DNA from: Anaerolineaceae bacterium
Lineage (GTDB): Bacteria > Chloroflexota > Anaerolineae > Promineifilales > Promineifilaceae
DNA: 64,000 nucleotides
Assembly (NCBI GenBank): GCA_002699125.1
Contig: PABI01000152.1
Coordinates: forward strand, 1-64,000
Reading direction: 5' to 3'
The notes under the pieces were generated by a model. That model saw nothing but the letters and a program-made list of their open reading frames with translations, searched no databases and was not told where the DNA came from. Position 1 is the first letter of the stretch, and every line of letters begins with the position of its first letter. Made by a program: the position numbers and the translations under genes. Shown here in pieces: positions 1-43,846 of this stretch.

Positions 1-518
1 TCGGTCAATCGTCCGATTTCCCCTTCCAATTTTTCAATTGTTTCCGAACGATTCCGAACAAGCTTGTCTAACTCGGATTCCTTCTCCCGGATTTCCCGAA
101 CGATTTCATCCAGGCTGTTTTGTGCTTCCAGCCGAACAGCTGTTTCCTTCAACTGTGCCAACAACAACTCAAAAGATAGAAACAAAGCGATTGGCGGAAT
201 GGCGGCCAGAAACTGAGCCAGCAGCTCCTTTTGGGCATGGATGATGTTCAACACCACGCTCAACAGAGTAAACACAGAAACCAAAACCCACCGATACACC
301 GTCCGCTCACGCGTTAGGTTAGCCCGCAGGACGCTCAGACTAAAAACAATAATCGCGCCGTCAATGATGGCAGGATACAACCAGGCAATCTGCTCAGCAA
401 TGCCAATCTGAACCGCCAAATCCTTGAGGGATTCAAAGGACAGAAAGAAGGCGCTGCCGGCCAGAAACAAGACCAGCAGTGCTGAAACAAGGGAAATGAG
501 GTGATTAATGCGCTGCAT
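1..518 (-). CDS. DUF2637/winged-helix membrane protein, copy A (3' part outside window)
   Basis: The reading frame runs from an ATG at 518 off the left edge, so only about 172 residues are visible. It is collinear with the six other copies here: four hydrophobic helices in the first ~125 residues, then a charged coiled coil. The usual winged-helix end lies outside the window. The ORF track shows only shadow frames, probably because this ORF has no stop inside the window. The start is the one shared by all copies, preceded by AGAGGTGA a few bases upstream. It follows the signalling operon on the same strand. Function is unknown; a membrane-anchored DNA-binding protein is inferred from the domain order of the complete copies. 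Confidence 0.85.
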   Translation of the reverse strand, partial: MQRINHLISLVSALLVLFLAGSAFFLSFESLKDLAVQIGIAEQIAWLYPAIIDGAIIVFSLSVLRANLTRERTVYRWVLVSVFTLLSVVLNIIHAQKELLAQFLAAIPPIALFLSFELLLAQLKETAVRLEAQNSLDEIVREIREKESELDKLVRNRSETIEKLEGEIGRLT

Positions 519-600
519 GATTCACCTCTGTTTTCTCTGGATAAATGGGGAAAGTTAGGCTGAACGGGAAGTTCGTTTTGGTTTGATATTTGCGGGTAGA

Positions 601-622
601 TTGCTATCACATTGTTAGCATA
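601..622 (-). promoter_or_regulatory. Tandem 11-bp repeat upstream of copy A (putative operator)
   Basis: TTGCTATCACA is followed directly by TTGTTAGCATA on the plus strand, about 82 bp upstream of the copy A start. The second half has one change from the family consensus TTGTTAGCACA. The 11-bp spacing is one helical turn, as expected for two protomers on one DNA face. Regulation by the winged-helix protein itself is inferred. Confidence 0.5.
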
Positions 623-809
623 ATGCGATAAATACCAACTTTAATTTTAACTTAGGCAACTGTTGATGATGTTCTCGGCTGGGAATTTAGGATTCGTTTG
701 GGTCTCAATTTACACTGCTATGGTTTTCAAATTAGCTCTCCCTTACCAGGTATAATGTGGGCGTCTATTTGTTTTGTACACCGCCTGATTGAGTTGATCT
801 TCCAAGATC

Positions 810-2768
810 CTAAATGTTTAGCTTGAAGCCTCGGCCTCGAACCGTGATAAGGTATTTTGGGTTTTTACTGGTGACTTCAATTTTATAGCGTACTCGACCA
901 ATCAATGTATCTAGAGTGTTCTTACTCCAGACAGGCTCTTGTGCATCACTCCAAACATGGCGCGCGATATCATCACGTGCACATAATTGATTCTTATTTT
1001 GATAGAGGAAATCAAGAAGCGCATATTCCTGTGGTGTAAGGTCAATTTTTTCCCCTTTTACCCACACACATTTGTCCTGCATGTCCAACCAAAGTCCATG
1101 GTGAGCCTCCATAGGTAGTTGCCGACCAGATTCAGATTGTACAGCTAAATTATCACACAGCATCACAAGTGAAAGCAGCGAATGTGCATAGGACTCCAAT
1201 TCACCACGTCTGTAGCGGATCGCAGGATCGAATGTGCTAAAATAGCTTAGAGTGTAGGCACACAAACCAAGTAAATACGGCTTAAGATTAGGGTCCAGAT
1301 TATGGGTTGCCAATCTACGCAAGTAGGTGATAATAACAAAGGCTTTTGCCATATTAACCGGTAAGTCTTCCTTCTCTTCTGATTCTTCTGGCTTTTTTCT
1401 AGATATGAGGCGTTGCTCAAGCAGGTAGCGGTCTGCAACTGAAACAGAGCGCAACCAGGCAAACTTGATATGGTTTTCTAGTCGAGCAAAGTCACGCAAC
1501 AATACCCCATCTCCGGCCTGAGAGAAATTAATTAGCCACGTTGTCCCGTCGAGGCCCACTCTCACACTGTGCCCATCAACACATCCATGTACTATGCCAC
1601 ATAAAACTTGTTGTGGAGGAAGTGAAATGAGCCTATGATGTGTTGGTAATTGGTACGAGATAGGTGAATCACCGGCGATTTGTAGTGACAATCGTCCTGC
1701 TGTGCAATTCAAGAGCGCAACACCGGCGGACATGGCTTGCTTACATAGGGCCTCGATTTTTGTTTCTAATAAATCGTCAAATTTCGTGGTATCAAATGAC
1801 ATACTTGTCACAAAGTCTGGCAAAGTGTATTCTTTTTGGGATAAACCTCCCTCGTGCCATGCAGCTAGCGTTACATGATACAGATGATCTAAAGCCTGGA
1901 TGCTAGCTTGTGTATTATTATATCGATAGAAAGTTGAGAATGAGGTCATTGCCTCCAAGTCCCCTTCGACTAAATTATAACCAGAGATAGCAAAGCGCAG
2001 TGTTTTGACAAATGATAATTCTCTGGCCCAACGAGTACTACCTATCCCCTTTCCCGTTGGGAGTGATTCGCTGCGTTTACGTTCATTAACAACCAATGAA
2101 CGCCTACCAATAGAAATGACATATTGTGTTTCTTTATCCAATGCATTATAAGCAAATACTTCTAGAATCACATGGCCAGGCAAAGTCGACAAAATGCGCC
2201 CTAGCGTGACTTGTTTGAAATTATAGAATAACTGCCGAATAAGGTCTTCGATTTCTTTTGCACGTTCTTCGAATAAGAATGGGTCGGTACTTGGCTGAAT
2301 TAAACTGATCAAGTGGTTAGGTGAGTAGGTTGGGTTCCACCGTATGATAAGCTCCCAATTTATCTTAATCTTCTCAGAAAATGCTTTGGAGATTGCTCTG
2401 TGAAGTACTTCTGGTCCGTCGGGTTTAGTAACGAAGTCGACAATATTAGCCCTTTCATCCAAAATCAATTTCAATGCCTCGCTAATATGATCCTTGGGAT
2501 AAGCAGTCAAGATAATTTTTGGTATGGATCGATATTTCTTATTTTGTGCCCAAAGTAAGCCACTCACGTCTTCTGGGTGGGTCTCATCTTCCATACGAAT
2601 ATCCGAAATGACAAGATGAACCCGCTTTTCCTGTAACAGTTGATTGGCGCGATCTATAGATTCCGCTTTAAATACTCGATATCCTTCTTCAATCAGTGAT
2701 TGTGCTTGGACATCAAGATATGATTGTACATTGTCTACCAAGAGCAGTGATTGCTTCTGACGGGACAT
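810..2768 (-). CDS. Response regulator: receiver, degenerate kinase-like domain, OmpR-type winged helix
   Basis: This 652-residue protein starts with a receiver domain (about 6-130; phospho-acceptor Asp in VISDIRMED, Lys in FVTKPDG). It ends with an OmpR/PhoB-type winged helix (about 548-652; LTPQEYALLDFLY, then TVRGRGFKL). The long middle resembles the phosphotransferase-like domain of bacterial conflict systems (TCAD9-like, recalled family): VHGCVDGHS near 396 and WLINFSQAG near 411 sit where an active enzyme would have HGD....N and D-F. Those acidic residues are missing, so it is probably a pseudokinase or nucleotide sensor. It is the last gene of the four-gene operon, 11 bp after the REC/two-TM gene. 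It is the only operon member with a DNA-binding domain and so the probable output. Family naming of the middle domain is tentative. Confidence 0.8.
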   Translation of the reverse strand: MSRQKQSLLLVDNVQSYLDVQAQSLIEEGYRVFKAESIDRANQLLQEKRVHLVISDIRMEDETHPEDVSGLLWAQNKKYRSIPKIILTAYPKDHISEALKLILDERANIVDFVTKPDGPEVLHRAISKAFSEKIKINWELIIRWNPTYSPNHLISLIQPSTDPFLFEERAKEIEDLIRQLFYNFKQVTLGRILSTLPGHVILEVFAYNALDKETQYVISIGRRSLVVNERKRSESLPTGKGIGSTRWARELSFVKTLRFAISGYNLVEGDLEAMTSFSTFYRYNNTQASIQALDHLYHVTLAAWHEGGLSQKEYTLPDFVTSMSFDTTKFDDLLETKIEALCKQAMSAGVALLNCTAGRLSLQIAGDSPISYQLPTHHRLISLPPQQVLCGIVHGCVDGHSVRVGLDGTTWLINFSQAGDGVLLRDFARLENHIKFAWLRSVSVADRYLLEQRLISRKKPEESEEKEDLPVNMAKAFVIITYLRRLATHNLDPNLKPYLLGLCAYTLSYFSTFDPAIRYRRGELESYAHSLLSLVMLCDNLAVQSESGRQLPMEAHHGLWLDMQDKCVWVKGEKIDLTPQEYALLDFLYQNKNQLCARDDIARHVWSDAQEPVWSKNTLDTLIGRVRYKIEVTSKNPKYLITVRGRGFKLNI

Positions 2769-2779
2769 ATTCTCCCCTT

Positions 2780-3613
2780 TTATTCCTCAGTGTTAGTTAT
2801 TTGGCTTGTTGTGAACCATCTATTCGCTGCCGACATGATGACCGCGGCTTTAGTTGACACTTCGGTTTCTCCTGGCAAGTGTTCACTTGCAGACAATAAA
2901 ATTTCCAATCCATATAACTGCATCAGTTCTCGATGATAGAGATCAACACGCTGGTTAGCATAATCCAAACGAGAATAGAATAGCAGCACTAATGCCTCAA
3001 GTAAAACACCACTGACCATGCTTGCAACAGCAATGGTCGCTTCATTTATCAACACCAATCCGATGCTAATAATAATGACAATAAATCCGACCACAGCGGC
3101 TACCAATGCAATACGATCAAGTAGGTTTGCGTGTTGCCGCGCCACAGCATTGTCATGCTGGATTTGTGCTGCGGCCTTAATCGTTGATTGACGTAGTTGA
3201 TGCCATGTGATAAGGCTATCCTCGATGGCTTTTAGTAGTGGACCAGGGCCTTCCTCTTTACCTACGATAGTCATTACAGAAGGTAATTCGCCGCGTGCAA
3301 ATCCTGTGGCCTCCCGCCAACTCTCATTTGAGACAGCATGTCCTGTCAAAATAATCTTGGGAATATGCCGAATAGATTCTTCGCGTGCTAGGGTAATGCC
3401 GGTTTTGTCGTCCGGATCATTCCTTAATTTCAAGTCGATAATTGCCAAATCGATTGCTTGTTCGTGCATGAGAGACAATGCTTCCTCTGGAGTCGATGCC
3501 AGAATGACAGTATAACCCTCAGCTACCAACGAGTCTCGCCAGGAGCGCCGATCAGATTTGTCATCATCAACAAATAACAGAACCCCTTTTGTGTTCACTT
3601 TGGAACTCCTCAT
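2780..3613 (-). CDS. Receiver domain fused to a two-helix membrane domain (TRADD-N-associated type)
   Basis: The protein has 277 residues. Residues 11-135 form a receiver domain with acidic pocket (VDDDKSD), acceptor Asp in IIDLKLRND and the KIILTGH strand. A linker then leads to two adjacent transmembrane helices at about 168-214 and a short helical tail containing NQRVDLYHRELMQLYGLE. The helix pair and tail resemble the membrane module annotated as TRADD-N-associated (CyanoTRADDas_TM-like, from memory), which occurs in predicted immunity and cell-death proteins of multicellular bacteria. There is no signal peptide, so the receiver should be cytoplasmic. It overlaps the 3' end of the giant kinase gene by 4 bp (ATGA type), implying translational coupling. 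A phosphorylation-controlled membrane effector or scaffold is inferred. Confidence 0.75.
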   Translation of the reverse strand: MRSSKVNTKGVLLFVDDDKSDRRSWRDSLVAEGYTVILASTPEEALSLMHEQAIDLAIIDLKLRNDPDDKTGITLAREESIRHIPKIILTGHAVSNESWREATGFARGELPSVMTIVGKEEGPGPLLKAIEDSLITWHQLRQSTIKAAAQIQHDNAVARQHANLLDRIALVAAVVGFIVIIISIGLVLINEATIAVASMVSGVLLEALVLLFYSRLDYANQRVDLYHRELMQLYGLEILLSASEHLPGETEVSTKAAVIMSAANRWFTTSQITNTEE

Positions 3614-6600
3614 TCAAATGGAAGTTGAACAAAAAATCGAGCGCCATCAGAATAAGTGGCATCGTGTTCAACAGTACCACCATAGGTTTGTGCAATTGCG
3701 GCTGCTTGCATTAATCCGATGCCAGCTCCTTTTTCGCCTGGCTCTTTTTCTATCCGGTCTTGAAAGAGCTGTGATTGGATTTCAACAGGAATACCTGGAC
3801 CATTATCTTCAAAAGTAATCGTGACTGTACTAGTATCGCACTGTGTACGTACTGTGAACCGGGCATTAAGTGTCTGTGCATTCATCATGGCCTCAATGGA
3901 ATTATCGCTTACGATCTCACATAGTTGCCGCAGCCAAGCACGGCTGGCGCGAATGGTTCCGTGGGCATCTACATCCTTTGCCAATAACAGTTGAAGAGAA
4001 ATACTTTTGTCGCGATGCTGTGAATTTTGCCAACGGTGTGCGAAATATTCTGACAGCTCTTTGTTAAGGGACAACGATACTATGGCTTTCTCCGATGTCA
4101 GAGGCTCGGTCAATGGAATCTGCAAGATATCATCAACCGCTTCGACTAATTCGGTTAGCTTAGCAAGTGCAGCATGATTATTCTTACGAGCCAATTGCTT
4201 GTTAAGTAAATAGGCGTGGTTTTTAACCTCGCCGATAGCCCTCCTGATATCATGTCCCCAGCCTAGACTGACCATCTCCATCCACTTTATAGCATTGTGT
4301 GACCCAACGAAGCCCTTGATACGACGTATTTCTTCCACGTACTGTGCATGACTAATCGCCACGGCTGCTGGTGCTGCCAACGCCTCCAAAATCCGCTCAT
4401 GCCAATCAGTGAATGCATCGACTTCCTCATGTTCAGCTACAATGAATCCGATAATTTCTTCCTGATATTTTATGCATATCGCCATCGCCGAACGGGTTTC
4501 TTCATGCGATTTAAGAAAATGTGGATTTTTGCGCACATCTGGCACGCGTTGGTTTTTTCCGGTTCGATATGCATGTCCTGTAATTCCGTATCGGCCCTTG
4601 ATTCCGGCTTCCCAATCAATATGTGAACCTAGTTTTTCGTGAATCTCCCCCAATTTTTCTTGTGGGTAGGCTGATACAATTTCACCTACGCTACCATCAG
4701 CTAACAAGATGTCGCAAAATAATGCGTTCTTCTCTTGTACTTTCGCTAATTTCCATGCACGTTCAGCAATTGTGTCTAAAACTGCTTTAAGGTCTAAGGA
4801 ACTCATCACGGCCTTGCTGGCGTCACTAAGGGATTCAAGAGTCCCTGCTCGTTTGCGTTCCCGTTCGTATAAAAGTGCGTCGTGAATGGCAACTGCAGCT
4901 TGATCGGCGAAAAGTTGGATGTTAGCGATCTCTTCGCCGGCCAAAGTACGCTGATGGCGATAGTTAATAAACAAAACACCTACTGATTCCTCTTGAATGC
5001 GTAGGGGAAATGCGACAAGGGATTTGATGTCTTCATCCTCAGTGAAACGACGGTTTTGGAATTTCGGGTCTTCTGTCGTATCAGAGCAAAGATAAGGTTC
5101 TGTGCGCTTAAGAATCTCAAAAACGATAGAGCTGTCGGGGATCTGTTTATATCTGCGAACCCGGCCTTCAAATATGACACCCTCCATTTTGGGCGGATAT
5201 TCAAAACAAGCATTCTCGGTGTCGTAGACATAGAGAACAACAGCATCACAGCCAAAAACATCAATTGCACCTTTTACAACAGCTTTCAGTGTAGCATCCA
5301 AACCTTTATCGACATTCAAGCGAGCAATCAGCTTGGCCGTATCGTACGCATGCTGTACTTTGTCTAACAAACGAGCCTTCTTGAGGGCAATGGCTGCATG
5401 ATTGGCAAGGGTAGTGACATTCCGACGCTCTTCGGCGGAAAAGTCCCTTGGATTTGCGTAGTCGACGAACAAAACACCCAGTTTCTCGTCTCCTACACTC
5501 AATCGCACACCCTGAAAACTACCCACACCATTAAGTTGCAACATTTTACGAGTCTTCTTCCCAAGAAAACTATAGCGCGTTTCATCGCTTACATCCTCAA
5601 TGTCAATAACGTCGGTGTTGTTAATCACAATATGCGTTGTGTGTCCACGATGCAAATCGTGTTTATTCGCCTCCCATTTTGTGACATTTACGGCGACTGC
5701 TTCATCACGTACAAATTGGTCGCGCATATCATCATAAGACAAAATTGCCGCAGATTTGGCGTGGAGAACTTTGACTGCGCTCGCCACAATTTGATGTAGA
5801 ACTGCTTCGACATTGTTTGTACTCGATAAGGATTCGGCCGCTTCTTGCATATATTGCAAAGTTTCGATCTTGCGGGCCTGATCATATGCAGCAGCGGCCT
5901 GCTTGGCATAGAGCATTAAGGTAGCAATCTCGGCATCCTTGAAAGTCCGTGGCTTATGGTAATGTACCCACATGACACCGACATGCTCATTGTGTACTGT
6001 AAACGGTAAGCATACAGCAGCTTTAGCTTGCTTGTTGGGCATACGAGGGTTAATATCCGGATCATTCTCCGTATTGGAGCAGACATGGGGAATGCCTGTT
6101 TGTTTAACACGGACTGAAATGCCGCCGTTTGGACGCACGATGTTTTCCACGTCTCTTCTCCAACCTTCACCCGAAAAATGGAGGGCGGTTGCTCGATTTT
6201 GGTTGTCTAGTAATACAACCCCAGCATTTAGCGCACCGTTAACGACCTGAGCGCGCTCTATGGCTGTCTCAAGTACGACCCTTGGATTTTCGGCTACAGC
6301 TAGGGCAATACTTGCTTCAAAAGAGTCTTTGAGTTGTTTCCACGCGAGTTGCTCATTTTCCAGTAACTTTGAATTCTTGAGGGCAATGGCGGCATGGTCA
6401 GCAAACATACGCAGTAGACGTACATCTTCGGCCGAAAACTCCCGTCCTACTTTATCCTCGATGAATAATACTCCAACAATCTCATCGCGCCATTTGAGCA
6501 ACACCTCTAGAATGGCCCCAAATTGGCGTTTGTCCTCGTAAGTATTGGCTCGTCCATCCCACTGAGCGTAATCGCTTACGGTCATGTAGGGTTCGCCAGA

Positions 6601-9216
6601 CTGGACAAGTTTTCCGGCCATTCCTTCACCGATTTTTAATCTCCGACCAACTATACTTGGGTGAACGTCTGAGTAATCAGCAATTACACAAAGAAGATTG
6701 TGCTCATTGTCATACTCGTAGATACCACCATTAGTGGCGCTCAACAGATCAATTGAGCGTTCAATGATTGCTTGTAATAAAGACCTGCCTTCACTTTGAG
6801 AGAGTCGTCTGATTTCCCGATTAACTCTCTCTAAATCGATGGCTTGTTGTCGCGTTTGTTCGAGCAATTGTACCCTGCTGATCGCAATAGCTGCCGTATT
6901 TGCTAGCGTGATCAGTGATTGAATAGTTTCATCTTCTATAGGATGATGATTGAATTTGTTATCGGCAACTAGAAGACCGATAACCTCCCCTCTGGAGCGT
7001 AATGCTGTAATAAGAAACGGGAAATGTGGTTCAAATTGCTCCTTAAACAAGAGTGGCAAGTGTTTGATATCGATCTCAGACTCGAGGTATTGCCAATGTC
7101 CTTCGGCTACGGCCTTTGAGAAGACATCATCCTCTTTTAACCGTATCGGGATTTCTAAGCCAACCACGCGCTTGCCCAAGGGAGTTTGGGGAATTTTTGA
7201 ATTGAGTTGTTCGCGTATTACTTTAAGATTATCGAGACCATGTTCATCCATTGACTCCCAGACCTGTTGATTCTCATCTGGATCGAAGTAACCTAACCCA
7301 ATAACGCCAATAAGTTTTTCTTCCTCAAAATCGCGCAAGAAGAGGGCTGCTCGATTTAAACCAAGCCCAAATCCTGCCGTCGCACCTGTCACTATCAGGT
7401 AATACACTTCGTCGAGTTTATCGGCGGATTGTAGTGCATCGGTAATCTGCTGTTGTAACATCGATTGGCCGGATAAGCGCTTATAACTCCGAATATCCTC
7501 GAAATGCCCTAATGCTCCTCTGTGTTCACCCAACCCATCATACAGCCAACTGACAGATAGACGGACCGGAATAGGCATACCAGTCTTGGTACGAGCAATC
7601 GTCTCGTAATCTATGAGTCGGCCATCAGGGGATGAGCGTAAACGATTACCAATGTTACTTGGTTCCTCGCTGTGATAGAATATCTCTCCTACATGCCGTC
7701 CGATAATTTCACTTTCGTCGTAATTTAATAACAGCGCAGCACGTTTATTACAGTAAGTGATTTTACCACCACGATTATTAGCTAAAATGGCCATTGGAGA
7801 ATCAGTCGTTAAGTGATACGCTTCCTCATAAACTCTCGACTTATCTATCGCAGTGGCAGCATGTGTGGCCAGGATTTGGCAAAGTTCTATTTCCTCTGCA
7901 CTGAATAGGCGCTTACGACCAATAGCATCAAGGCTGAATGAGCCCAATGGCTTGCCCTGAACGATTGAAGGCACGGCCATGATCGATTGAATATCAAATT
8001 CGAGCAGCAAATTTTTTACCTCTCCTAACTCTTCGCATGTGGCAACATCCTCAACCACTATCGGCTCGTGTCGATTAACAAGCTTCTGTTCAGCCGGAAC
8101 GCCCTCAATTTGAACATGCCGTCCCCCAATGCCAACTGCCTCCGGGTACTCTGCTACTACTCGACCTGATTGATAAGCGTCATCAAAAATCACAAATCCA
8201 CTATGCTCTATGTCAAATAATTCGACTACCGATCGACACAGCGTATTTAGAATCTCTTGTAATGTTTTCTGATTTTTCAAAGTTTCCGTAACCTGTCGAA
8301 TCACCTCCATTTTTTGCTGGCTTCGGGCGGTTTGGATGGCGGCCGCTACCTGATTGGCAAAAATGGCGATGGGGCGTAGCTCCGTTAGTGTGATCGCCTG
8401 CCGGCTTTGGATATTGTCAACCCCGATCTTGCCAATGACCTCATCCTCTACAACCAGAGGGATGCAGCCCCATTCGGTCAAACTGTCATCATGTTCAAAT
8501 GGAGCTGGCTTGCCTGGCAGATATGGGACAATGATAGGACGTTGTTCCTCAAATAGGGTTTGAATATTAGGATGCTGTTCCACCGGGCTGTAGTGGCCAA
8601 CAAAATCTGGGGACATGCCAAATTGAGCCCGCCCAACAAGATATTGACGATCATCTGACAAATGATAAAGACGAACACGATCAAAACCAATAGCGTGGAT
8701 CGCATGGAGGATAGTAGTTTGAATATCCTCGAGTTTTGCATCATTGAGTAACAGGGGACTTGTTTCCATCAACTGTTCCATGATGCGCTTCTCGACTGCT
8801 GTTGTTTTCAATCGACCAAATTCAGATGCCTGCCGGACTAAATAACCAATTTCATCGGGATCGAAAGTCGCTTTCTTGACGATTCGAAAGACCCCATGCT
8901 CCATTGCTTGCCAATCCTTATCCAATCCCCAACCAGTCAAAAGTATAAATTCTGTATAGGCGCTTATTTCGCGAATCGCATGTACTAAATCGAGGCCAAG
9001 TCGTTCGGGTTCGCTATCGGCTGAACGCATCAACATATCGTCTAGGAGAGCTACGTCAAAAGTTTGCTGTCTGCTTGCTACTGCATTCAACGCTTCGTCG
9101 TAGTTTGCGGCTTCAACGACCGCAAATCCGAAATGCTTACGTAGGTAGTCTGAAAGCGGCGTCCGTAAACTGGCCTCATCATCGACAAATAGGACCGAAA
9201 GAGGATTATGTGTCAT
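3610..9216 (-). CDS. Giant hybrid sensor kinase: receiver, multiple GAF, one PAS, histidine kinase
   Basis: The track ORF starts at 9240, but an ATG at 9216 (MTHNPLSV) has AAAGGAAG about 9 bp upstream and leaves a 2-bp gap after the preceding stop, so it is preferred (1868 residues). Order by track numbering: receiver (about 14-135, Asp in VALLDDMLMR), two GAF domains, a PAS domain near 480-600 (ITYCNKRAALLLNY), then about six more GAF domains to near 1630. The C-terminal kinase has a phospho-acceptor candidate His in GWGHDIRRAIG (near 1662), an N box EIVSDNSIEAM, DNGPGIP (near 1813) and GAGIGL (near 1838). No transmembrane helix or signal peptide is seen, so it should be a soluble multi-input sensor. 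GAF counts are by eye. The receiver at the N-terminus suggests input from another kinase, possibly the S1-containing one encoded just upstream. Confidence 0.9.
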   Translation of the reverse strand: MTHNPLSVLFVDDEASLRTPLSDYLRKHFGFAVVEAANYDEALNAVASRQQTFDVALLDDMLMRSADSEPERLGLDLVHAIREISAYTEFILLTGWGLDKDWQAMEHGVFRIVKKATFDPDEIGYLVRQASEFGRLKTTAVEKRIMEQLMETSPLLLNDAKLEDIQTTILHAIHAIGFDRVRLYHLSDDRQYLVGRAQFGMSPDFVGHYSPVEQHPNIQTLFEEQRPIIVPYLPGKPAPFEHDDSLTEWGCIPLVVEDEVIGKIGVDNIQSRQAITLTELRPIAIFANQVAAAIQTARSQQKMEVIRQVTETLKNQKTLQEILNTLCRSVVELFDIEHSGFVIFDDAYQSGRVVAEYPEAVGIGGRHVQIEGVPAEQKLVNRHEPIVVEDVATCEELGEVKNLLLEFDIQSIMAVPSIVQGKPLGSFSLDAIGRKRLFSAEEIELCQILATHAATAIDKSRVYEEAYHLTTDSPMAILANNRGGKITYCNKRAALLLNYDESEIIGRHVGEIFYHSEEPSNIGNRLRSSPDGRLIDYETIARTKTGMPIPVRLSVSWLYDGLGEHRGALGHFEDIRSYKRLSGQSMLQQQITDALQSADKLDEVYYLIVTGATAGFGLGLNRAALFLRDFEEEKLIGVIGLGYFDPDENQQVWESMDEHGLDNLKVIREQLNSKIPQTPLGKRVVGLEIPIRLKEDDVFSKAVAEGHWQYLESEIDIKHLPLLFKEQFEPHFPFLITALRSRGEVIGLLVADNKFNHHPIEDETIQSLITLANTAAIAISRVQLLEQTRQQAIDLERVNREIRRLSQSEGRSLLQAIIERSIDLLSATNGGIYEYDNEHNLLCVIADYSDVHPSIVGRRLKIGEGMAGKLVQSGEPYMTVSDYAQWDGRANTYEDKRQFGAILEVLLKWRDEIVGVLFIEDKVGREFSAEDVRLLRMFADHAAIALKNSKLLENEQLAWKQLKDSFEASIALAVAENPRVVLETAIERAQVVNGALNAGVVLLDNQNRATALHFSGEGWRRDVENIVRPNGGISVRVKQTGIPHVCSNTENDPDINPRMPNKQAKAAVCLPFTVHNEHVGVMWVHYHKPRTFKDAEIATLMLYAKQAAAAYDQARKIETLQYMQEAAESLSSTNNVEAVLHQIVASAVKVLHAKSAAILSYDDMRDQFVRDEAVAVNVTKWEANKHDLHRGHTTHIVINNTDVIDIEDVSDETRYSFLGKKTRKMLQLNGVGSFQGVRLSVGDEKLGVLFVDYANPRDFSAEERRNVTTLANHAAIALKKARLLDKVQHAYDTAKLIARLNVDKGLDATLKAVVKGAIDVFGCDAVVLYVYDTENACFEYPPKMEGVIFEGRVRRYKQIPDSSIVFEILKRTEPYLCSDTTEDPKFQNRRFTEDEDIKSLVAFPLRIQEESVGVLFINYRHQRTLAGEEIANIQLFADQAAVAIHDALLYERERKRAGTLESLSDASKAVMSSLDLKAVLDTIAERAWKLAKVQEKNALFCDILLADGSVGEIVSAYPQEKLGEIHEKLGSHIDWEAGIKGRYGITGHAYRTGKNQRVPDVRKNPHFLKSHEETRSAMAICIKYQEEIIGFIVAEHEEVDAFTDWHERILEALAAPAAVAISHAQYVEEIRRIKGFVGSHNAIKWMEMVSLGWGHDIRRAIGEVKNHAYLLNKQLARKNNHAALAKLTELVEAVDDILQIPLTEPLTSEKAIVSLSLNKELSEYFAHRWQNSQHRDKSISLQLLLAKDVDAHGTIRASRAWLRQLCEIVSDNSIEAMMNAQTLNARFTVRTQCDTSTVTITFEDNGPGIPVEIQSQLFQDRIEKEPGEKGAGIGLMQAAAIAQTYGGTVEHDATYSDGARFFVQLPFE

Positions 9217-9218
9217 CT

Positions 9219-11573
9219 CTAATTGCTTCCTTTGCCACAAATTGGAATTTCAATCTGAAACGTCGTTCCCAAATGGATCGGGCTGGATTCGATCTTTATC
9301 GTCCCACCGAACATTTCGACGAGGCTGCGTGCAATGTATAATCCTTGCCCAGACCCGTCAGTGCGTGATGTATACCCCAATAAAAACACCTTTTCCCACA
9401 GCTTGCGATGAATGCCCGGCCCATTGTCCGTTACTAAGATACGAACAATAGGTTTTTGAACAGTGTGTATTTCTTTCGACTCAATACTGATTAATCCATT
9501 ACGGTTGCGTACTGTAGGGATTTGCTGTACTGCATTAAGTATTAGGTTGAGTAAAACTTGGTGCAATGCTGTAGTATTGCCCACCACTGTCGGTAAATTA
9601 GAGGCAATATCAGTCTTGATCTCGATATGTTGGTAACGGGCCAGAGGCGTAGCCACTTTTAGGGCTTGCTGTATAGCTCGATTAACATTAGCTGCTCCTT
9701 CCTCATCTTGGGCCATCAGCTGTTGGAACAGAGATACTGTTTTACGTAATCCTTTAATTGTTTTCAGAACGCTGACCAGAGTTTTTTGCATTTGGTTATA
9801 GGCCACTGAATCCGACAAACCAGGATTATCATTTTGTAATGCACTGCATTCTTCTTGCAGACAGCTCACACTTAGGTTAATGCTAGACAACTTGTTGTTG
9901 ATTTCATGGTGTAATCCTGTTGCCACTTGCCCGGTTAGCAACAAAGCATTAAGTTGTTGCATGCGCTTGGCAAATTGATCTTGTTCAATGACTGTTGCCA
10001 ACAATGTTGCACTAGCCATTGCGTCGCGCATTCGATATTTATGAAATGCTTTTCGATCCCGATGGAATATAAACAAAGCGTAATCAGCACTGGACTGAGT
10101 CGGGATCGGGACACCAATGCAAGAGCCAAATGGAAAAAGAGCCAACAACTTTTCAAAGCGCAATTTACCGATTGTATCTGCACTGTTTTCTATAACCGGT
10201 TGCTGTTCCCGAACCACATCCCCAACAGGGCTTTGGTGTAAGCTGTAAAGAGCTCCATCATTGAATATACAGTTACCGATTTGAGTCACAATCGATGTAG
10301 TATTGGCGAAGCGAGCAAGCTGGAAAATAATCCCATTTTGTGCATGAGTTGTTTCAATCAACGACATCAAAATCTTATGTAGACGTTGATCAGTTGTGGT
10401 ATCAGCCGGCAAACTGGTCGTAAGGGTGGCGATATCAGGCACACCGCTAATGGCTGACTGTTCCTCCGGACGCCAAGTCTCCACTTCCCCAGCTTCAATT
10501 TGTCGCAAGATGTCCACGATTTCGTCTGTATCTAGTGGTTTGGGCAAAACGGCAATTACATTAAGGGCTTCAATTTGCGAACTGTGTGCGGCTAAAGTTT
10601 CAGAGTCGCTCATAACAACAATCTCAGTATTGGCCAATTGCTTAGCCATTTCCGCGACAAACTGTAGACCATCATCCCAGTGTATTTGGATATCTACTAA
10701 GAGAACAGCATATGATCGCTGGGACAACGCATCACGTGCCGACTCTAAGTTCATAGCTCCTTCTGCTTCATAGCCTAGATGTCGCAAATGTTGCACTAAC
10801 GGCTCACAAATCCCAATTTCATCGTCAAGGATAAAAACAGGACCGAGTTTCGGCATGGGTATTGGCCAATTGTCAAGTGTAGTGTCAGCTTCGGGATCAT
10901 AATCAGGCACCTCTGTTTGTATGGTTTGTATACGTTGCCAGACTTCGGCTGCTTCATTGATTTGGCGAATGCGCTGACGCATGCTTAAGCGTATGCGACG
11001 TTCTTTATGATCAATGTAAGTAATGATTGCCTCTACCTGATCGCCAACCCAAACAATGTCTTCAGGTTTATCAACAGGTTGCAAAGCTAGCTGATCGCGT
11101 GTTATGAGACCATCCACGCCGGGGACGATCTCAATAAAAACACCGAACGGTTCCAAGCTCTTGACTATACCGCGTATAAGTTGTCCTGTTTCATGTTTCT
11201 CTATGAATGATTCCCATGGGTCGGGAATAACAGCTTTAAGACTCAAGCGCAACGATTGATCTCTGGTGGGCAGCTCGATTACAATAGCACTAACAGTTTG
11301 ACCTACAGTGACCAATTGGCGCGGGTCACTAGACCCTCCCCAAGACACATCTCGACGATGGACATAACCGATTGAACCATCCTTCATACGGACAAAGACA
11401 GCGTATGGCAGCGTTTTTTCTACAGTAACTTCTACCTGTTCCGCAATTACGTAAGGGGCACCTCTACTCACCATAACATTTTTTACCTTTAAATAATGTG
11501 TGATACCTTCAGCATAACAGGAAATCGAGTAGAAAAACTCACAGCTTTTCAACAATTTGCTCACATTTTCCAA
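9219..11573 (-). CDS. S1-S1-receiver-GAF-histidine kinase fusion protein
   Basis: Two S1-type OB-fold RNA-binding domains occupy about 35-205 (VRMKDGSIGYVHRRD; then LIRGIVKSLEPFGVFIEI). A receiver domain follows at about 243-360 (acidic pair LDDE, acceptor Asp in LLVDIQIHW, Lys in VLPKPLD), then a GAF-like region to ~545. A histidine kinase ends the protein: phospho-acceptor His in GLHHEINNKLSS near 556, N box LNLILNAV, DNGPGIH near 718 and GQGLYIA near 741. The track ORF has 784 residues. An internal ATG at 11474 (MVSRGAPYVIAEQ) begins just before the first S1 domain and has AAAGGT about 10 bp upstream, so the true protein may have 751 residues. It is the first gene of the operon. S1 domains on a two-component kinase are unusual and suggest sensing of RNA or ribosome state. 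Confidence 0.85.
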   Translation of the reverse strand: MENVSKLLKSCEFFYSISCYAEGITHYLKVKNVMVSRGAPYVIAEQVEVTVEKTLPYAVFVRMKDGSIGYVHRRDVSWGGSSDPRQLVTVGQTVSAIVIELPTRDQSLRLSLKAVIPDPWESFIEKHETGQLIRGIVKSLEPFGVFIEIVPGVDGLITRDQLALQPVDKPEDIVWVGDQVEAIITYIDHKERRIRLSMRQRIRQINEAAEVWQRIQTIQTEVPDYDPEADTTLDNWPIPMPKLGPVFILDDEIGICEPLVQHLRHLGYEAEGAMNLESARDALSQRSYAVLLVDIQIHWDDGLQFVAEMAKQLANTEIVVMSDSETLAAHSSQIEALNVIAVLPKPLDTDEIVDILRQIEAGEVETWRPEEQSAISGVPDIATLTTSLPADTTTDQRLHKILMSLIETTHAQNGIIFQLARFANTTSIVTQIGNCIFNDGALYSLHQSPVGDVVREQQPVIENSADTIGKLRFEKLLALFPFGSCIGVPIPTQSSADYALFIFHRDRKAFHKYRMRDAMASATLLATVIEQDQFAKRMQQLNALLLTGQVATGLHHEINNKLSSINLSVSCLQEECSALQNDNPGLSDSVAYNQMQKTLVSVLKTIKGLRKTVSLFQQLMAQDEEGAANVNRAIQQALKVATPLARYQHIEIKTDIASNLPTVVGNTTALHQVLLNLILNAVQQIPTVRNRNGLISIESKEIHTVQKPIVRILVTDNGPGIHRKLWEKVFLLGYTSRTDGSGQGLYIARSLVEMFGGTIKIESSPIHLGTTFQIEIPICGKGSN

Positions 11574-11697
11574 TGCTTTATGGGAAATCTATTGATCTGC
11601 TCCCAAAAATTGATTCTTGGGGATTGGTAACCATCCCTTAAACTCGAGCCAACTATAATTGGACTCCTTGCAAATGATGAGCATCTAACATATAGAG
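11574..11697. other. Gap between copy B gene and signalling operon
   Basis: This short gap lies between the stop of the copy B gene and the start of the kinase operon. It is the obvious place for the operon promoter, but I see no clear -35/-10 pair. The left-end repeat found beside copies C, E, F and G is absent here. Confidence 0.5.
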
Positions 11698-12528
11698 TCA
11701 CCGGGCTAATCTTATCGCCACACCTGTCAGAACCCTCCAGCCAAACCTATCTTTTTCAATAAACCCAGCGGCCTGCAATTCGGATAAATAACCACCAACT
11801 GTTGATTTCGACCGTCCGATTCCCACCGCCAATTCGGACAATGTCGCGTTCGGTCTTGTTCGGATAACTTCCAGTAGCTGTTGCATGGCTTCCTGCTTTT
11901 TGGACGTTCGTTGTTGCCGTGCCAATCCGATTGTGTCAGATTCGGACGGTTTTGAGCCACTATTTCCATTTGAGTGCGATTGAATCTCAATTTTCAGTTT
12001 GCCCTTTTTTTCGGTCAATCGTCCGATTTCCCCTTCCAATTTTTCAATTGTTTCCGAACGATTCCGAACAAGCTTGTTCAACTCGGATTCCTTCTCCCGG
12101 ATTTCCCGAACGATTTCAGCCAGACTGTTTTGTACTTCCAACCGAACGGCCGTTTCCTTCAACTGCGTCAATAACAGCTCAAAAGAGAGGAATAAAGCCA
12201 CCGGCGGAATGGCGGCCAGGAACTGAGCCAGCAGCTCCTGTTGGGCATGAATAATATTCAACACCACACTCAACAGTGTAAACACAGAAACCAGCACCCA
12301 AGGATACACAGTCCGTTCTCGCGTAAGGTTAGCTCGCAAAACGCTCAAGCTAAAAACGATAATCGCACCGTCAATGATGACTGGATAAAGCCAGGCGAGC
12401 TCCTCAGCCACACCAATCTGAACCGCCAAATCCTTGAGAGATTCAAAGGACAGAAAGAAGGCACTGCCGGCCAGAAACAACACCAGCAGTGCCGAAAACA
12501 GGGAAATGAGGTGATTAATGCGCTGCAT
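11698..12528 (-). CDS. DUF2637/winged-helix membrane protein, copy B
   Basis: This complete copy has 276 residues. Four hydrophobic helices lie at about 5-125 (ALLVLFLAGSAFF; LYPVIIDGAIIVFSLSV; VLVSVFTLLSVVLNIIHA; AIPPVALFLSFELL), matching the DUF2637 pattern. A coiled coil follows at about 128-178, then a basic stretch (RQQRTSKKQEAM) and a winged helix at about 215-265 (ATLSELAVGIGRSKSTVGGYLSELQ). After the shared GWRVL the tail TGVAIRLAR is unique to this copy. No signal peptide is seen beyond the first helix, so the winged helix is expected in the cytoplasm. The gene is directly upstream of the kinase operon on the same strand. Confidence 0.85.
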   Translation of the reverse strand: MQRINHLISLFSALLVLFLAGSAFFLSFESLKDLAVQIGVAEELAWLYPVIIDGAIIVFSLSVLRANLTRERTVYPWVLVSVFTLLSVVLNIIHAQQELLAQFLAAIPPVALFLSFELLLTQLKETAVRLEVQNSLAEIVREIREKESELNKLVRNRSETIEKLEGEIGRLTEKKGKLKIEIQSHSNGNSGSKPSESDTIGLARQQRTSKKQEAMQQLLEVIRTRPNATLSELAVGIGRSKSTVGGYLSELQAAGFIEKDRFGWRVLTGVAIRLAR

Positions 12529-14671: not shown

Positions 14672-14842
14672 ATGGAACAATCAGAACAAGCTGCTAACAA
14701 TCTAATAAGGGTATTTTGTACGTCTTCAAATCTCTGGGGCACTTCGCAGCAAAAATATGATAGACTTATCCTAACAAATACTTGGCAAATCATTCTAGAA
14801 ATCCTGCAGAACCCTCCAGCCAAGTTCATCTTTTTCAATTGA
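14672..14842 (+). pseudogene. 5' stub of a gene cut by repeat copy C
   Basis: An ATG at 14672 with a strong GGAGGG ribosome-binding site follows the PKD-like gene by 12 bp. It encodes MEQSEQAANNLIRVF and then runs into the left-end repeat of copy C, where the reading frame continues as element sequence to a stop at 14842. The good ribosome-binding site and operon spacing suggest a genuine second operon gene that lost everything after about 14 codons when the element arrived. The identity of the lost gene is unknown. Confidence 0.45.
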
Positions 14843-15607
14843 TCGAGCCACCTGCAATTCGGACAAATACCCACCAACTGTTGATTTCGACCGTCCGATT
14901 TCAACAGCTAATTCGGACAATGTCGCGTTCGGTTTCGTTCGGATAACTTCCAACAGGTGCTGCATGGCTTCCTGTTTTTTGGTCGTTCGTTGTTGCCGAG
15001 CCCGTCCGATTGTGTCAGATTCGGACGCTTCTGAGCCATTATTTCCGTTCGAGTGTACTTGGATCATGGTTTTTAGTTGGTCCTTTTGTTCTGACAATCG
15101 TCCGATTTCTCCTTCCAATATCTTTATGGTTTCTGAACGCTCTCGTATGATTTCGTCTAGATTAGTTTCCTTCTCTTGAACTTCCCGAACGATTTCATCC
15201 AAACTGTATTGTGCTTCTAGTCGGACAGCTGCTTCCTTCAGCTGCGCCAACAACAACTCAAAAGAGAGAAACAAAGCTACTGGCGGAATGGCAGCCAGGA
15301 ACTGAGCTAGCAGCTCTTTTTGAGCATGAATGATATTCAAAACCACACTCAACAGAGTAAACATAGAAACCAGCACCCACGGATAAATTGTCCGCTCTCG
15401 CGTCAGGTTGGCCCGCAAAACGCTCAGGCTGAAGACGACAATCGCACCATCGATGATGGCAGGATACAACCAAGCAATCCCCTCAGCCACACCAATCTGA
15501 ACCGCCAAATCCCTGAGAGATTCAAACGAGAGAAAGAAGGCACTGCCAGCCAGAAACAAGACCAGCAGTGCCGAAACAAGGGAAATGAGGTGATTAATGC
15601 GCTGCAT
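14795..15607 (-). CDS. DUF2637/winged-helix membrane protein, copy C
   Basis: This complete copy has 270 residues. Its coiled-coil region is the most diverged of the set (KETNLDEIIRERSETIKILEGEIGRL). The winged helix is at about 212-262 (ATLSELAVEIGRSKSTVGGYLSEL) and the tail after GWRVL is QDF. The start is the family ATG before AGGTGAACC on the coding strand. It is convergent with the PKD-like gene and divergent from the phosphotransferase-like gene at 16009. Confidence 0.85.
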   Translation of the reverse strand: MQRINHLISLVSALLVLFLAGSAFFLSFESLRDLAVQIGVAEGIAWLYPAIIDGAIVVFSLSVLRANLTRERTIYPWVLVSMFTLLSVVLNIIHAQKELLAQFLAAIPPVALFLSFELLLAQLKEAAVRLEAQYSLDEIVREVQEKETNLDEIIRERSETIKILEGEIGRLSEQKDQLKTMIQVHSNGNNGSEASESDTIGRARQQRTTKKQEAMQHLLEVIRTKPNATLSELAVEIGRSKSTVGGYLSELQVARSIEKDELGWRVLQDF

Positions 15608-16008: not shown

Positions 16009-18510
16009 ATGATGCTCATAGATTTGCAAAATCTCTCTAACATCCATAACGCACAAGCAATAGCTTCCGGCGGGAAAGCCCGCGGGCTTTCTAAGCTGCT
16101 GGCTGCCGGTTTTCCGGTGCCGCCAGGGTGGGTCGTTCTGCCAACGGCCTTTGCTGGAGACAATTTAACGGCTGGCGCTCGTCAGCAAATAATATCAGTC
16201 ATTACCACCCATCTTGCCCAGCAGCCCGACGTCACCTTTGCCGTTCGTTCCTCCGGTGCAGATGAAGATTCTGCGACGGCTGCCTTTGCCGGGGTGTTTC
16301 AAACTATCCTTAACGTCGCTTCGCCACAGGCTATACTGGAGGCGGTAGAAACCGTTTACGCTTCGCGCCGCGAGGCCGCCTCTTATCGCCGCGCCCACGG
16401 GCTGGACGAAGCACAAATCATGGCGGTCATCATTCAGGAACTCATTCCCGCCGATTGCGCCGGGGTCTGCCTGGCTGTTGACCCGGTGGCGCTGCGCGCC
16501 GACCAGCTGGTGATCAATGCTGCATGGGGCCTGGGTGCCGGCGTAATGGACGGCCGGGTTCCCAGCGATACCTACTGGCTGGAAACGCCTACATCAATCA
16601 CAACCAGGCAGCAAATTGCCGCAAAAACCACTCAGCTTTCATTGGTAGAGGTCGGCATCGGGGAAACGGCCGTTCCCGCCGACCGGCACCGTGTGCCCTG
16701 CCTGCCACCCGCCTGGCGGAAGCGCATTGCCCAGTTCACATTGGCCCTCACTCGCCACTTTGGCCAGCCCCAGGAAGTCGAGTGGGCAATTGCCCATGAG
16801 CAGCTCTGGATTCTACAAAGCCGGCCGCAAACGGCGCTGCCACCGGCGCTCAACCACGTGTCGCCGTTTCCCGTTACCTGGGAGCCTGAGGCCGCCCGAG
16901 ATTTTTGGCAGTTGATGGAATACAGCCAGGACCAACTGCCGCTGCCGCTGGAACACGATACCATGCACGTGCGGGAAAGCATCCGCGAAGAAACGTGCCG
17001 GATAATGGGTGCCGACAGGAATATGGAGATGCGCATTTGGAACGGCCGGGCTTATTCTCGCCGCTTGCCCCTGAACATCACGGACGCCGACCGTCGCATT
17101 CGGCGCGCCGCCGCAGCCGATCTCCGCCAACGGTTGCAGCAGCAGGGCCAAACAACCTGGGAATATTGGGGGCCTGAAATTATCAGCGCCGTCGAACGGC
17201 TGCGCCGGTTTGACCGGGAGTCGGCCGCTGGCCCGGCACTGGCGGACCATCTGGCAGAAGCACTGGCGGTGCTGCGCCGCCACGCGTCGCTGCATCCCCG
17301 GCTCACTATAAAGCCTCCAGACAGCTATTTTGCCGCATTTTCGGCCGTTTCCGGATTAAAGGATGATGAAGCGAAAACGGCCGCCTATCACCTGCTCGAC
17401 AGTGAAGAAAACAGCCTTACCCGGCTGGTGGACAGCCTCTATGATCTGGCCGTCGCCGCCCGCCAACATCCGACCGTAGCCGCTCTGGTGGCTGACCCGC
17501 CACCACAAGTTGTGGCTCAGCTGGCGGCTCTGCCGGAAGCTAAAGAATTTCTGCAACAATTTTCAGAGCTGCTGACCGTTTACGGTGAACGCCTTGGCGA
17601 AGGGTATGGATCGGAAATGAGCGTGCGCACGCCTACCTGGCTGGAAGCCCCGGCGCGACCGGTGCGCCTGGTTACCGTGTTTCTGGACCCGACCATCCCC
17701 GATCCTGCTGATGTACGAGGGCAAGCGCGTGCCCGGCGGGATCAGCAAGTGACAGCGTTGTGCGCCGACTGTGAGGACGAAACGGCCGTCGCTCATTTTC
17801 GACAGGAGTGGGCCTATGCCCGCCAAATCCTGGTGGTCTTGGAAGACCACAATCACTGGATCGAGCAGGCCACCGGCGGACAGGTGCGGCTGGCCGTAAT
17901 GGCTGCCGCCCGCTGGCTGGTCGGACAAAATGTGCTGCCGGAACCAGACACAATCTTCTGGCTGACTTTTGATGAAATTCTCGGCGCTTTACGCACCAGT
18001 GTGCTGGAAACTGACCTCATTGCTCAGCGGCAAACCCAGTATGCTCATTGGGCCACACTGACCCCGCCACCCATCCTAGGCGTGCCAACAGTCTTGCTGC
18101 CCTCCCGCCCTGAGATGGCAGATATACCAGTTGAAGAGGAAAATGAGGTAGAAGATGGCCGCTTACACGGTCTTGGCGCCAGCGCTGGGCAGGTTCAGGG
18201 GCAGGTGCGCGTTTTATCCAAAGCGGATCCACAAATGGATATCCAGCCTGGGGACATATTGGTGGCCGTTAACGCCGGACCCTTATGGACGCCGTTTTTT
18301 CCCATCTTGGGCGGTCTGATTCTGGAAGAAGGCTCACTTGGTCAGCATGCCGCCGTCACTGCTCGTGAATATGGCATTCCCACGGTTATACACGTTCCCC
18401 TTGCTACTCACCGCCTGACCGATGGCGAGTGGGTAACCGTTGACGGCACAAATGGTATTGTATTCCATACCTCAGTTGAGGATTTGGTAGTGAACGAAGG
18501 CGACTTATGA
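16009..18510 (+). CDS. Rifampicin-phosphotransferase-like enzyme (PPDK ATP-grasp plus His swivel domain)
   Basis: The track ORF begins at a GTG at 15985, but the conserved part starts at the ATGs at 16009/16012, so the protein has about 833 residues. The N-terminal third is a PPDK/PEP-synthase ATP-grasp domain (GGKARGLSKLLAAGFPVPPG; FAVRSSGADEDS; VEWAIAHEQLWILQSRPQT). The C-terminus is the mobile His domain (PGDILVAVNAGPLWTPFF; phosphorylated His in GSLGQHAAVTAREYGIP, near 786). The PEP-binding TIM barrel of true PEP synthase is missing, and a long helical domain lies between. This matches the rifampicin phosphotransferase order and length. The substrate is not readable from sequence; rifamycin or another small molecule is possible. 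It lies between repeat copies C and D. Its last 6 bp overlap the convergent copy D gene. Confidence 0.75.
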   Translation: MMLIDLQNLSNIHNAQAIASGGKARGLSKLLAAGFPVPPGWVVLPTAFAGDNLTAGARQQIISVITTHLAQQPDVTFAVRSSGADEDSATAAFAGVFQTILNVASPQAILEAVETVYASRREAASYRRAHGLDEAQIMAVIIQELIPADCAGVCLAVDPVALRADQLVINAAWGLGAGVMDGRVPSDTYWLETPTSITTRQQIAAKTTQLSLVEVGIGETAVPADRHRVPCLPPAWRKRIAQFTLALTRHFGQPQEVEWAIAHEQLWILQSRPQTALPPALNHVSPFPVTWEPEAARDFWQLMEYSQDQLPLPLEHDTMHVRESIREETCRIMGADRNMEMRIWNGRAYSRRLPLNITDADRRIRRAAAADLRQRLQQQGQTTWEYWGPEIISAVERLRRFDRESAAGPALADHLAEALAVLRRHASLHPRLTIKPPDSYFAAFSAVSGLKDDEAKTAAYHLLDSEENSLTRLVDSLYDLAVAARQHPTVAALVADPPPQVVAQLAALPEAKEFLQQFSELLTVYGERLGEGYGSEMSVRTPTWLEAPARPVRLVTVFLDPTIPDPADVRGQARARRDQQVTALCADCEDETAVAHFRQEWAYARQILVVLEDHNHWIEQATGGQVRLAVMAAARWLVGQNVLPEPDTIFWLTFDEILGALRTSVLETDLIAQRQTQYAHWATLTPPPILGVPTVLLPSRPEMADIPVEEENEVEDGRLHGLGASAGQVQGQVRVLSKADPQMDIQPGDILVAVNAGPLWTPFFPILGGLILEEGSLGQHAAVTAREYGIPTVIHVPLATHRLTDGEWVTVDGTNGIVFHTSVEDLVVNEGDL

Positions 18511-19323
18511 TGACATATTACTCAGAACCCTCCAGCCAAACTCACCTTTATCAATAGATTCAGCTACCTGCAATTCGGACAAATAACCACCCACAGTCGA
18601 TTTCGACCGACCGATTTGAACCGCCAATTCGGACAAGGTCGCGTTCGGTTTCGTTCGAATAATTTCCAACAATCGCTGCATGGCTTCCTGCTTTTTGGAT
18701 GTTCGTTGGCGTCGTGCCCGTCCGATTGTGTCAGATTCGGACGGTTTTGAGCCACTATTTCCGTTCGAGTGTACTTGAATCTCGGTTTTCAGTTGGCTCT
18801 TTTGTTCATTCAATCGTCCGATTTCCCCTTCCAGTTTTTCAATCTTTTCCGAACGCTCCCGTACGATTTTCTCCAACTCGGATTCCTTCTCATGGATTTC
18901 CTGAACGATTTCATCCAGACTGTTTTGAGCTTCCAACCGAACGGCCGTTTCCTTCAGCTGCGTTAATAACAGTTCAAAAGACAAAAACAAGGCAATTGGC
19001 GGAATAGCAGCCAGAAACTGAGCTAGCAGCTCTTGTTGAGCATGGATGATGTTCAACACCACACTCAGTAAGGTGAACCCCGAAACCAGCACCCATGGAT
19101 ACATAGTCCGTTCCCGCGTCAGGTTGGCCCGCAGGACACTCAGGCTGAAGACGATAATCGCACCGTCAATGATTGCCGGATACAGCCAGGCAATCTGCTT
19201 AGCAATGCCAATCTGAACCGCCAAATCTCTGAGAGATTCAAAGGATAGGAAGAAGGCACTGCCGGCCAGAAACAAGACCAGCAGTGCCGAAACAAGGGAA
19301 ATGAGGTGATTAATGCGCTGCAT
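18505..19323 (-). CDS. DUF2637/winged-helix membrane protein, copy D
   Basis: This complete copy has 272 residues with the four-helix DUF2637 N-terminus, a coiled coil (KIVRERSEKIEKLEGEIGRLNEQ) and a winged helix (ATLSELAVQIGRSKSTVGGYLSEL). After GWRVL the tail SNMSS is encoded by flanking DNA that also holds the end of the phosphotransferase-like gene; the two genes converge and overlap by 6 bp. The element thus uses a stop codon supplied by its neighbour. Confidence 0.85.
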   Translation of the reverse strand: MQRINHLISLVSALLVLFLAGSAFFLSFESLRDLAVQIGIAKQIAWLYPAIIDGAIIVFSLSVLRANLTRERTMYPWVLVSGFTLLSVVLNIIHAQQELLAQFLAAIPPIALFLSFELLLTQLKETAVRLEAQNSLDEIVQEIHEKESELEKIVRERSEKIEKLEGEIGRLNEQKSQLKTEIQVHSNGNSGSKPSESDTIGRARRQRTSKKQEAMQRLLEIIRTKPNATLSELAVQIGRSKSTVGGYLSELQVAESIDKGEFGWRVLSNMSS

Positions 19324-43027: not shown

Positions 43028-43846
43028 TCATTCCTTTACGTCATGCAGAACCCTCCAACCGAACTCATATTTTTCAATTGATCCAGCCACCTGCAATTCG
43101 GACAAGTACCCACCAACTGTCGACTTCGACCGTCCAATTTCAACAGCAAATTCGGACAATGTCGCGTTCGGTTTCGTTCGGATAATTGCCAACAGTTGTT
43201 GGATGGCTTCCTGTTTTTTTGTGGTTCGTTGCCGTCTTGCCCGTCCGATTGTGTCAGATTGGGGCGCTTTTGAGCCACTATTTCCGTTCGAGTGTACTTG
43301 GATCTCAGTTTTTAATTGGCCCTTTTGTTCGGTCAATCGTTCGATTTCCCCTTCCAATTTTTCAATTGTTTCCGTTCGGTTCTGAATAAGCATGTCCAAC
43401 TCGGATTCCTTTATCCGTATTTCTCGAACGATTTCAGCCAGACTGTTTTGTGCTTCCAGCCGAACGGCCGTTTCCTTCAGCTGGGCCAATAACAACTCAA
43501 AAGAAAGGAACAAAGCCACTGGGGGAATGGCGGCCAGAAACTGAGCCAGCAGCTCTTGGTGGGCATGAATGATATTCAACACTACACTCAACAAGGTAAA
43601 CCCAGAAACCAGCACCCAGGGATACACGGTTCGCTCTCGCGTCAGATTGGCTCGCAGGACACTCAGGCTGAAAACGATGATCGCACCATCTATGATGGCG
43701 GGATACAACCAGGCAATCGGGTCAGCAATGCCAATCTGCACCGCTAAATCCTTGAGGGATTCAAAGGACAGGAAGAAGGCACTGCCGGCCAGAAACAAGA
43801 CCAGCAGCGCCGAAACAAGGGAAATGAGGTGATTAATGCGCTGCAT
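43028..43846 (-). CDS. DUF2637/winged-helix membrane protein, copy E
   Basis: This complete copy has 272 residues. The coiled coil differs from other copies (RIKESELDMLIQNRTETIEKLEGEIERL). The winged helix ATLSEFAVEIGRSKSTVGGYLSEL carries Phe for Leu in the first helix. The tail after GWRVL is HDVKE. It is the first copy to the right of the giant-protein operon, 23 kb from copy D, the widest spacing in the array. Confidence 0.85.
   Translation of the reverse strand: MQRINHLISLVSALLVLFLAGSAFFLSFESLKDLAVQIGIADPIAWLYPAIIDGAIIVFSLSVLRANLTRERTVYPWVLVSGFTLLSVVLNIIHAHQELLAQFLAAIPPVALFLSFELLLAQLKETAVRLEAQNSLAEIVREIRIKESELDMLIQNRTETIEKLEGEIERLTEQKGQLKTEIQVHSNGNSGSKAPQSDTIGRARRQRTTKKQEAIQQLLAIIRTKPNATLSEFAVEIGRSKSTVGGYLSELQVAGSIEKYEFGWRVLHDVKE

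Follow-up and report, generated by a model that had tools for sequence, protein, structure and literature searches.

The minus-strand open reading frame at 9219-11573 of the window (the whole 64,000-nucleotide stretch of Anaerolineaceae DNA analysed here) encodes a histidine kinase with the domain order S1-S1-REC-GAF-HisKA-HATPase, and it is the first gene of a conserved operon. This operon is a predicted histidine-kinase relay with a bS1-like input, sharing parts with bacterial conflict and cell-death systems. With a probability of about one half, the S1 kinase is the input of a Chloroflexota phosphorelay operon that would convert an RNA or translation cue into gene expression or cell death. 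No paper describing an S1-fused histidine kinase was found among the open-access papers searched.

A histidine kinase with two S1 domains

The open reading frame is real, and the fusion of S1 domains to receiver, GAF and histidine kinase domains that a first-pass annotation had proposed for it is borne out. Pfam matches S1 (1.1e-22, in two stretches), Response_reg (9.5e-13) and HATPase_c (6.3e-18), together with a weak GAF match (7e-4) that lies slightly under the cut-off in the window copy. The same S1, Response_reg and HATPase_c matches are found in all 23 aligned homologues, and GAF_2 in 16 of them. The start at TTG 11573, on the other hand, is not retained. The homologues align with the listed frame only from about residue 34 onwards and the ATG at 11474 has AAAGG about 11 nt upstream, so by sequence this ATG is most likely the start and the protein most likely has 751 aa. 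Full-length homologues in 28 other genomes rule out an assembly or reading-frame artefact, or chance. The features of gene 1 are as follows.

9219-11474, minus strand: gene 1, S1-S1-REC-GAF-HisKA-HATPase histidine kinase, probably 751 aa (Pfam, homologues)
11235-11441, minus strand: S1-1 domain, with family-invariant Arg41 followed by Glu/Asp42 (PF00575, alignment columns, model)
10977-11198, minus strand: S1-2 domain, canonical bS1-type, preceded by a DPW linker (PF00575, bS1 match, alignment)
10506-10838, minus strand: receiver domain with family-invariant D261 and K312 (Pfam, alignment)
9990-10391, minus strand: GAF domain (Pfam)
9705-9977, minus strand: DHp/HisKA-like helices with the putative phospho-His H523, codon 9906-9908 (model, alignment)
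9243-9578, minus strand: HATPase_c domain (Pfam, alignment)

Gene 1 has the sequence hallmarks of a two-component histidine kinase, and kinase activity is predicted. Across the 23 aligned homologues, H523, the N box and the G1/G2 boxes are invariant or nearly so, and receiver residues D261 and K312 are invariant. In its H-, N- and G-box and receiver residues the protein resembles hybrid REC-GAF histidine kinases; unlike them, it has an S1 input and fixed partners, namely a multi-GAF kinase and a REC-APH protein.

The tandem arrangement of S1 domains at the N-terminus, also claimed at first pass, was examined by structure prediction. The AlphaFold2 model contains two OB-type domains (pLDDT ~90), and Foldseek matches the pair to the NMR structure of D3-D4 of Vibrio vulnificus ribosomal protein S1 (7a05, E 1.7e-15) and to bS1 in the 30S mRNA delivery complex (9gut), which excludes a non-S1 fold. 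Each of the two domains scores above the PF00575 cut-off, and the sequence matches to Escherichia coli bS1 (E 4.8e-50) cross the inter-repeat DPW linker. The pair thus resembles bS1 repeats D3 to D6 in its tandem S1 OB folds and DPW linker. Unlike bS1, gene 1 has two repeats only, fused to a histidine kinase; it carries an R-E motif in S1-1, and the RNA-face His is replaced in the window's clade.

Mean pairwise identity within the gene 1 family is 47% for HATPase, 39% for S1-1, 39% for S1-2, 36% for GAF, 31% for REC, 26% for HisKA and 13% for the linker. The S1 domains are therefore second only to HATPase in conservation, indicating that the pair is under strong purifying selection and arguing against a vestigial appendage. 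The N-terminal S1 domains are truly tandem and of the RNA-binding bS1 type, which makes it reasonable to suppose that they sense RNA or the translation machinery; RNA sensing would be the likeliest role of the pair.

The RNA face of S1 domains consists of two aromatics, His, Asp and Arg. In S1-1, the family signature R-(R/E)-R-E (Arg41 in 23/23, Glu or Asp at position 42 in 23/23) sits on the strand of the usual RNA-contacting His, which is Arg in most members. In S1-2, the corresponding residue is Thr in the window, Pro in most of the window's clade and His mainly in the other clade. The Arg-Arg/Glu-Arg-Glu motif of S1-1, together with a charge balance (22 K+R vs 23 D+E) that gives the pair no net positive charge, would suit a protein-docking module anchoring the kinase to the ribosome, to RNA polymerase or to the partner kinase, RNA not being the signal. 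Docking is the main rival for the role of the pair because, while D3-D6 of bS1 bind RNA, D1-D2 no longer do so and bind protein instead (PMC10931766). However, the pair and its linker resemble the RNA-binding repeats D3 to D6 rather than D1-D2, and an aromatic, Asp and Arg are retained in S1-2 of most members. We regard docking as rather unlikely.

The operon and its receiver-APH protein

Downstream of the S1 kinase the operon continues on the same strand.

3610-9213, minus strand: gene 2, REC followed by ~8 GAF/PAS domains and a histidine kinase; start at ATG 9213 (listed frame from TTG 9240)
2780-3613, minus strand: gene 3, receiver plus CyanoTRADDas-type protein with two TM segments, outside the conserved core
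810-2768, minus strand: gene 4, receiver, degenerate APH-like (TCAD9) domain and OmpR-type winged helix (Pfam, model, alignment)
1302-1613, minus strand: TCAD9/APH C-lobe of gene 4, with catalytic HGDxxxxN lost (alignment)
819-1055, minus strand: winged-helix DNA-binding domain (Trans_reg_C) of gene 4 (Pfam, model)

Gene 2 starts 5 nt past gene 1, genes 2 and 3 share 4 nt, and 11 nt separate gene 3 from gene 4. Within the operon, promoter-like sites were as numerous as in shuffles and are therefore uninformative. Wherever a homologous locus has 1 kb or more of DNA downstream of the S1 kinase (25 loci), the following gene encodes a multi-GAF histidine kinase; the L055 giant is counted from one locus survey and falls outside the distance filter of the other. 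The next core gene encodes a receiver-APH-like (TCAD9) protein in 20 of the 22 loci with enough DNA, as well as in the window. The two exceptions have EAD7-REC-CHAT (L049) and a 251-aa receiver protein (L055) in this third slot.

The TCAD9 (PF19974) score of gene 4 is 33.4 bits against a Pfam gathering cut-off of 40, which homologues from the other clade pass, and several homologues have Pfam APH matches. A structure search with the gene 4 model returned maltokinase, homoserine kinase and APH(3'), in addition to OmpR-type winged helices. TCAD9 thus looks, on the model, like an APH-type kinase fold, and gene 4 resembles the TCAD9/APH superfamily in this fold; unlike typical members it is fused to a receiver and, in the window's clade, is a pseudokinase with a winged helix. 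HGDxxxxN and the ATP-site Lys are lost and a winged helix is fused in gene 4 and six other members, whereas 14 other third-core proteins have HGDxxxxN intact and no winged helix. The APH domain of gene 4 is accordingly classed as a pseudokinase from its motifs. All seven winged-helix/pseudokinase loci fall within one clade of 13 sequences in the kinase tree (support 98/98), so the motif may have been lost in a single event.

Outside this clade, third-core proteins are fused to TIR (L066), to CHAT and then TIR (L060), or to caspase (L074). A TIR gene lies directly upstream of the S1 kinase at L056, and AAA/nSTAND-winged-helix genes are found downstream in other loci. TIR/CHAT carriers occupy three of 22 third-core slots against a genomic base rate for TIR plus CHAT of ~0.2% of genes, giving a rough p of 1e-5 (1e-4 at the highest genomic rate seen), a value to be read with the shared ancestry of the loci, which are not fully independent, and the small number of events, the caspase fusion lying outside the base-rate comparison. 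PADLOC models gave no match for genes 1, 2 and 4 and a weak one for gene 3 (2.4e-4, 18 bits); the TIR/CHAT-bearing homologues of the operon proteins do match.

Distribution, related operons and surroundings

Of 396 genomes of the class, 24, the window's genome included, carry a full-length gene 1 homologue; in another Chloroflexota class 5 of 158 genomes do, two of these copies being cut by contig ends. The family therefore has a patchy distribution over two Chloroflexota classes, comprising 28 genomes besides the window's. Three same-genus genomes yielded no full-length match, one of them (G003) having only partial matches to the S1 kinase. A pattern scan of genome contigs with a single-protein query gave no match; with a 3-row alignment it gave three Chloroflexota loci (a Caldilineales MAG and two Chloroflexi MAGs), which are probably the same records as G209, G058 and G051. 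Outside Chloroflexota the search consisted of such pattern scans, which would miss the second clade. The plasmid search gave no place that spans 80% of the protein, the matches listed being to the receiver-to-kinase part, and matches in viral contigs are confined to residues 514-747, the kinase end. In the kinase tree, families f1, f22 and f46 are each placed at more than one spot. Together with the patchy spread, this suggests horizontal transfer or repeated loss of the S1 kinase.

Two related operons of the window's genome, on contigs C34 and C166, lack an S1 kinase. The C34 operon (298-11751), a paralogue, has the ribosome-rescue gene smpB upstream of a 2631-aa kinase with 12 GAF domains, followed by a receiver-TCAD9-winged-helix gene whose product is 33% identical to gene 4. 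That on C166 (4495-16629) encodes an AAA-multi-GAF kinase, a receiver-APH protein and an nSTAND-winged-helix protein, with a NACHT-FGE gene upstream; the receiver-APH C-terminus has a weak SIR2-like match below the cut-off. An operon of the C166 type is also present in G003. In a further genome (G326, contig C3, 8083-16703), genes for a class II (alanyl-type) tRNA synthetase domain, a GAF kinase, receivers, receiver-TCAD9 and receiver-CHAT form one run, in which receiver-CHAT again lies beside receiver-TCAD9 without an S1 kinase. Given these related operons, the S1 kinase seems to be an input module that has joined a wider signalling family built on receiver-APH proteins.

A gene encoding DUF2637 and a winged helix occurs in eight copies, all on the minus strand and with 83-93% protein identity to the query copy.

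3-518, 11698-12528, 14795-15607, 18505-19323, 43028-43846, 47727-48530 and 51502-52314, and contig C154 68195-69010, minus strand: DUF2637-winged-helix copies

The copies lie in a direct repeat of ~1 kb, consisting of the gene and ~200 bp upstream, and within the genome this repeat is confined to the 74-kb contig that holds the window, bar one weak partial match. The repeats separate unrelated cargo operons and flank the S1-kinase operon on either side, so that the region looks like a repeat-flanked cargo island. The cargo between repeats at 21024-41714 of the window comprises a SNF2 helicase, 1877-aa and 1115-aa proteins without a Pfam match, a DUF6603 protein and a subtilase, its last genes forming one tight minus-strand run. 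It could be another mobile or conflict cluster.

Possible function and relation to known systems

In the proposed mechanism, the bS1-like pair would bind either single-stranded RNA or a component of the translation machinery that is bound to RNA, and its occupancy would alter the dimeric gene 1 kinase. The kinase would then phosphorylate its own receiver as well as those of the multi-GAF partner kinase and of the last protein of the operon, as suggested by the invariance of the His/Asp residues and the constant order of the genes. The window's relay would end in the receiver-pseudokinase APH-winged-helix protein, which should change transcription. In related operons, receiver-APH proteins with an intact APH motif may carry or adjoin TIR, CHAT or caspase effectors. 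Because the outputs appear to be transcription or these effectors, the system is most likely a stress or conflict response; the window copy, whose last domain is a winged helix, does not itself point to cell death.

Phage attack, raised at first pass as a possible trigger, gains indirect support from the operon partners that, in other genomes, bear TIR, CHAT or caspase domains. We only tentatively entertain the stronger version, a bacterial immune two-component system in which a bS1-derived sensor would detect an arrest of translation, or RNA that is foreign or abnormal, and signal through the multi-GAF kinase and the receiver-APH adaptor to interchangeable outputs (transcription, TIR, CHAT/caspase protease). 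The chief rival on the purpose of the system is an ordinary stress or growth-state regulator devoid of a defence role, in which the GAF domains would sense nutrients, redox or light, the S1 domains would modulate the response by translation state, and the winged helix would regulate housekeeping genes. Such a regulator is quite possible, if short of even odds: the window's clade combines winged-helix output and pseudokinase without a death effector, the partner kinase is GAF-rich, and a related S1-less operon adjoins smpB, although the fusions to TIR, CHAT and caspase seen in sister operons and the patchy distribution crossing families argue against it. It is also conceivable, if highly improbable, that the S1 pair mimics ribosomal protein bS1 and, as a decoy, senses phage proteins engaging bS1, as in a guard model. 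The pair is bS1-like, the operon partners resemble conflict systems, and phage factors such as T4 RegB use bS1 (PMC10931766); however, Chloroflexota phages are not known to target bS1, and an identity of only 28-32% to the host's own S1 proteins would make for poor mimicry.

TCAD9, the APH-type kinase, receiver, EAD7, CHAT, caspase, TIR and the TRADD-N-associated TM component are common to the operon family, the vWA-MoxR ternary systems (VMAP/TERNS3) and the TRADD-N systems (PMC7159879; PMC8195603). The vWA ternary systems have active APH kinases and receivers as effectors, and histidine kinase domains were not found among the vWA-associated effectors (Kaur et al., 2020, PMC7159879). Some TERNS3 systems have effectors with OST-HTH and multiple S1 domains (PMC8195603). 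None of the window's four operon genes has a Pfam match to vWA, MoxR or VMAP. As the operon is without vWA/MoxR and is built on histidine kinases, we do not file it as a member of the vWA ternary systems.

Histidine kinases are known to respond mainly to small molecules, light, membrane cues and proteins. If a bS1-type RNA-binding pair serves as a conserved input, the state of RNA or translation would be tied directly to a phosphorelay. The operon also links histidine-kinase signalling with the APH/CHAT/TIR/caspase conflict toolkit, a link whose absence among effectors the main survey of those systems had noted, and its three-gene core is small enough for testing in a laboratory host.
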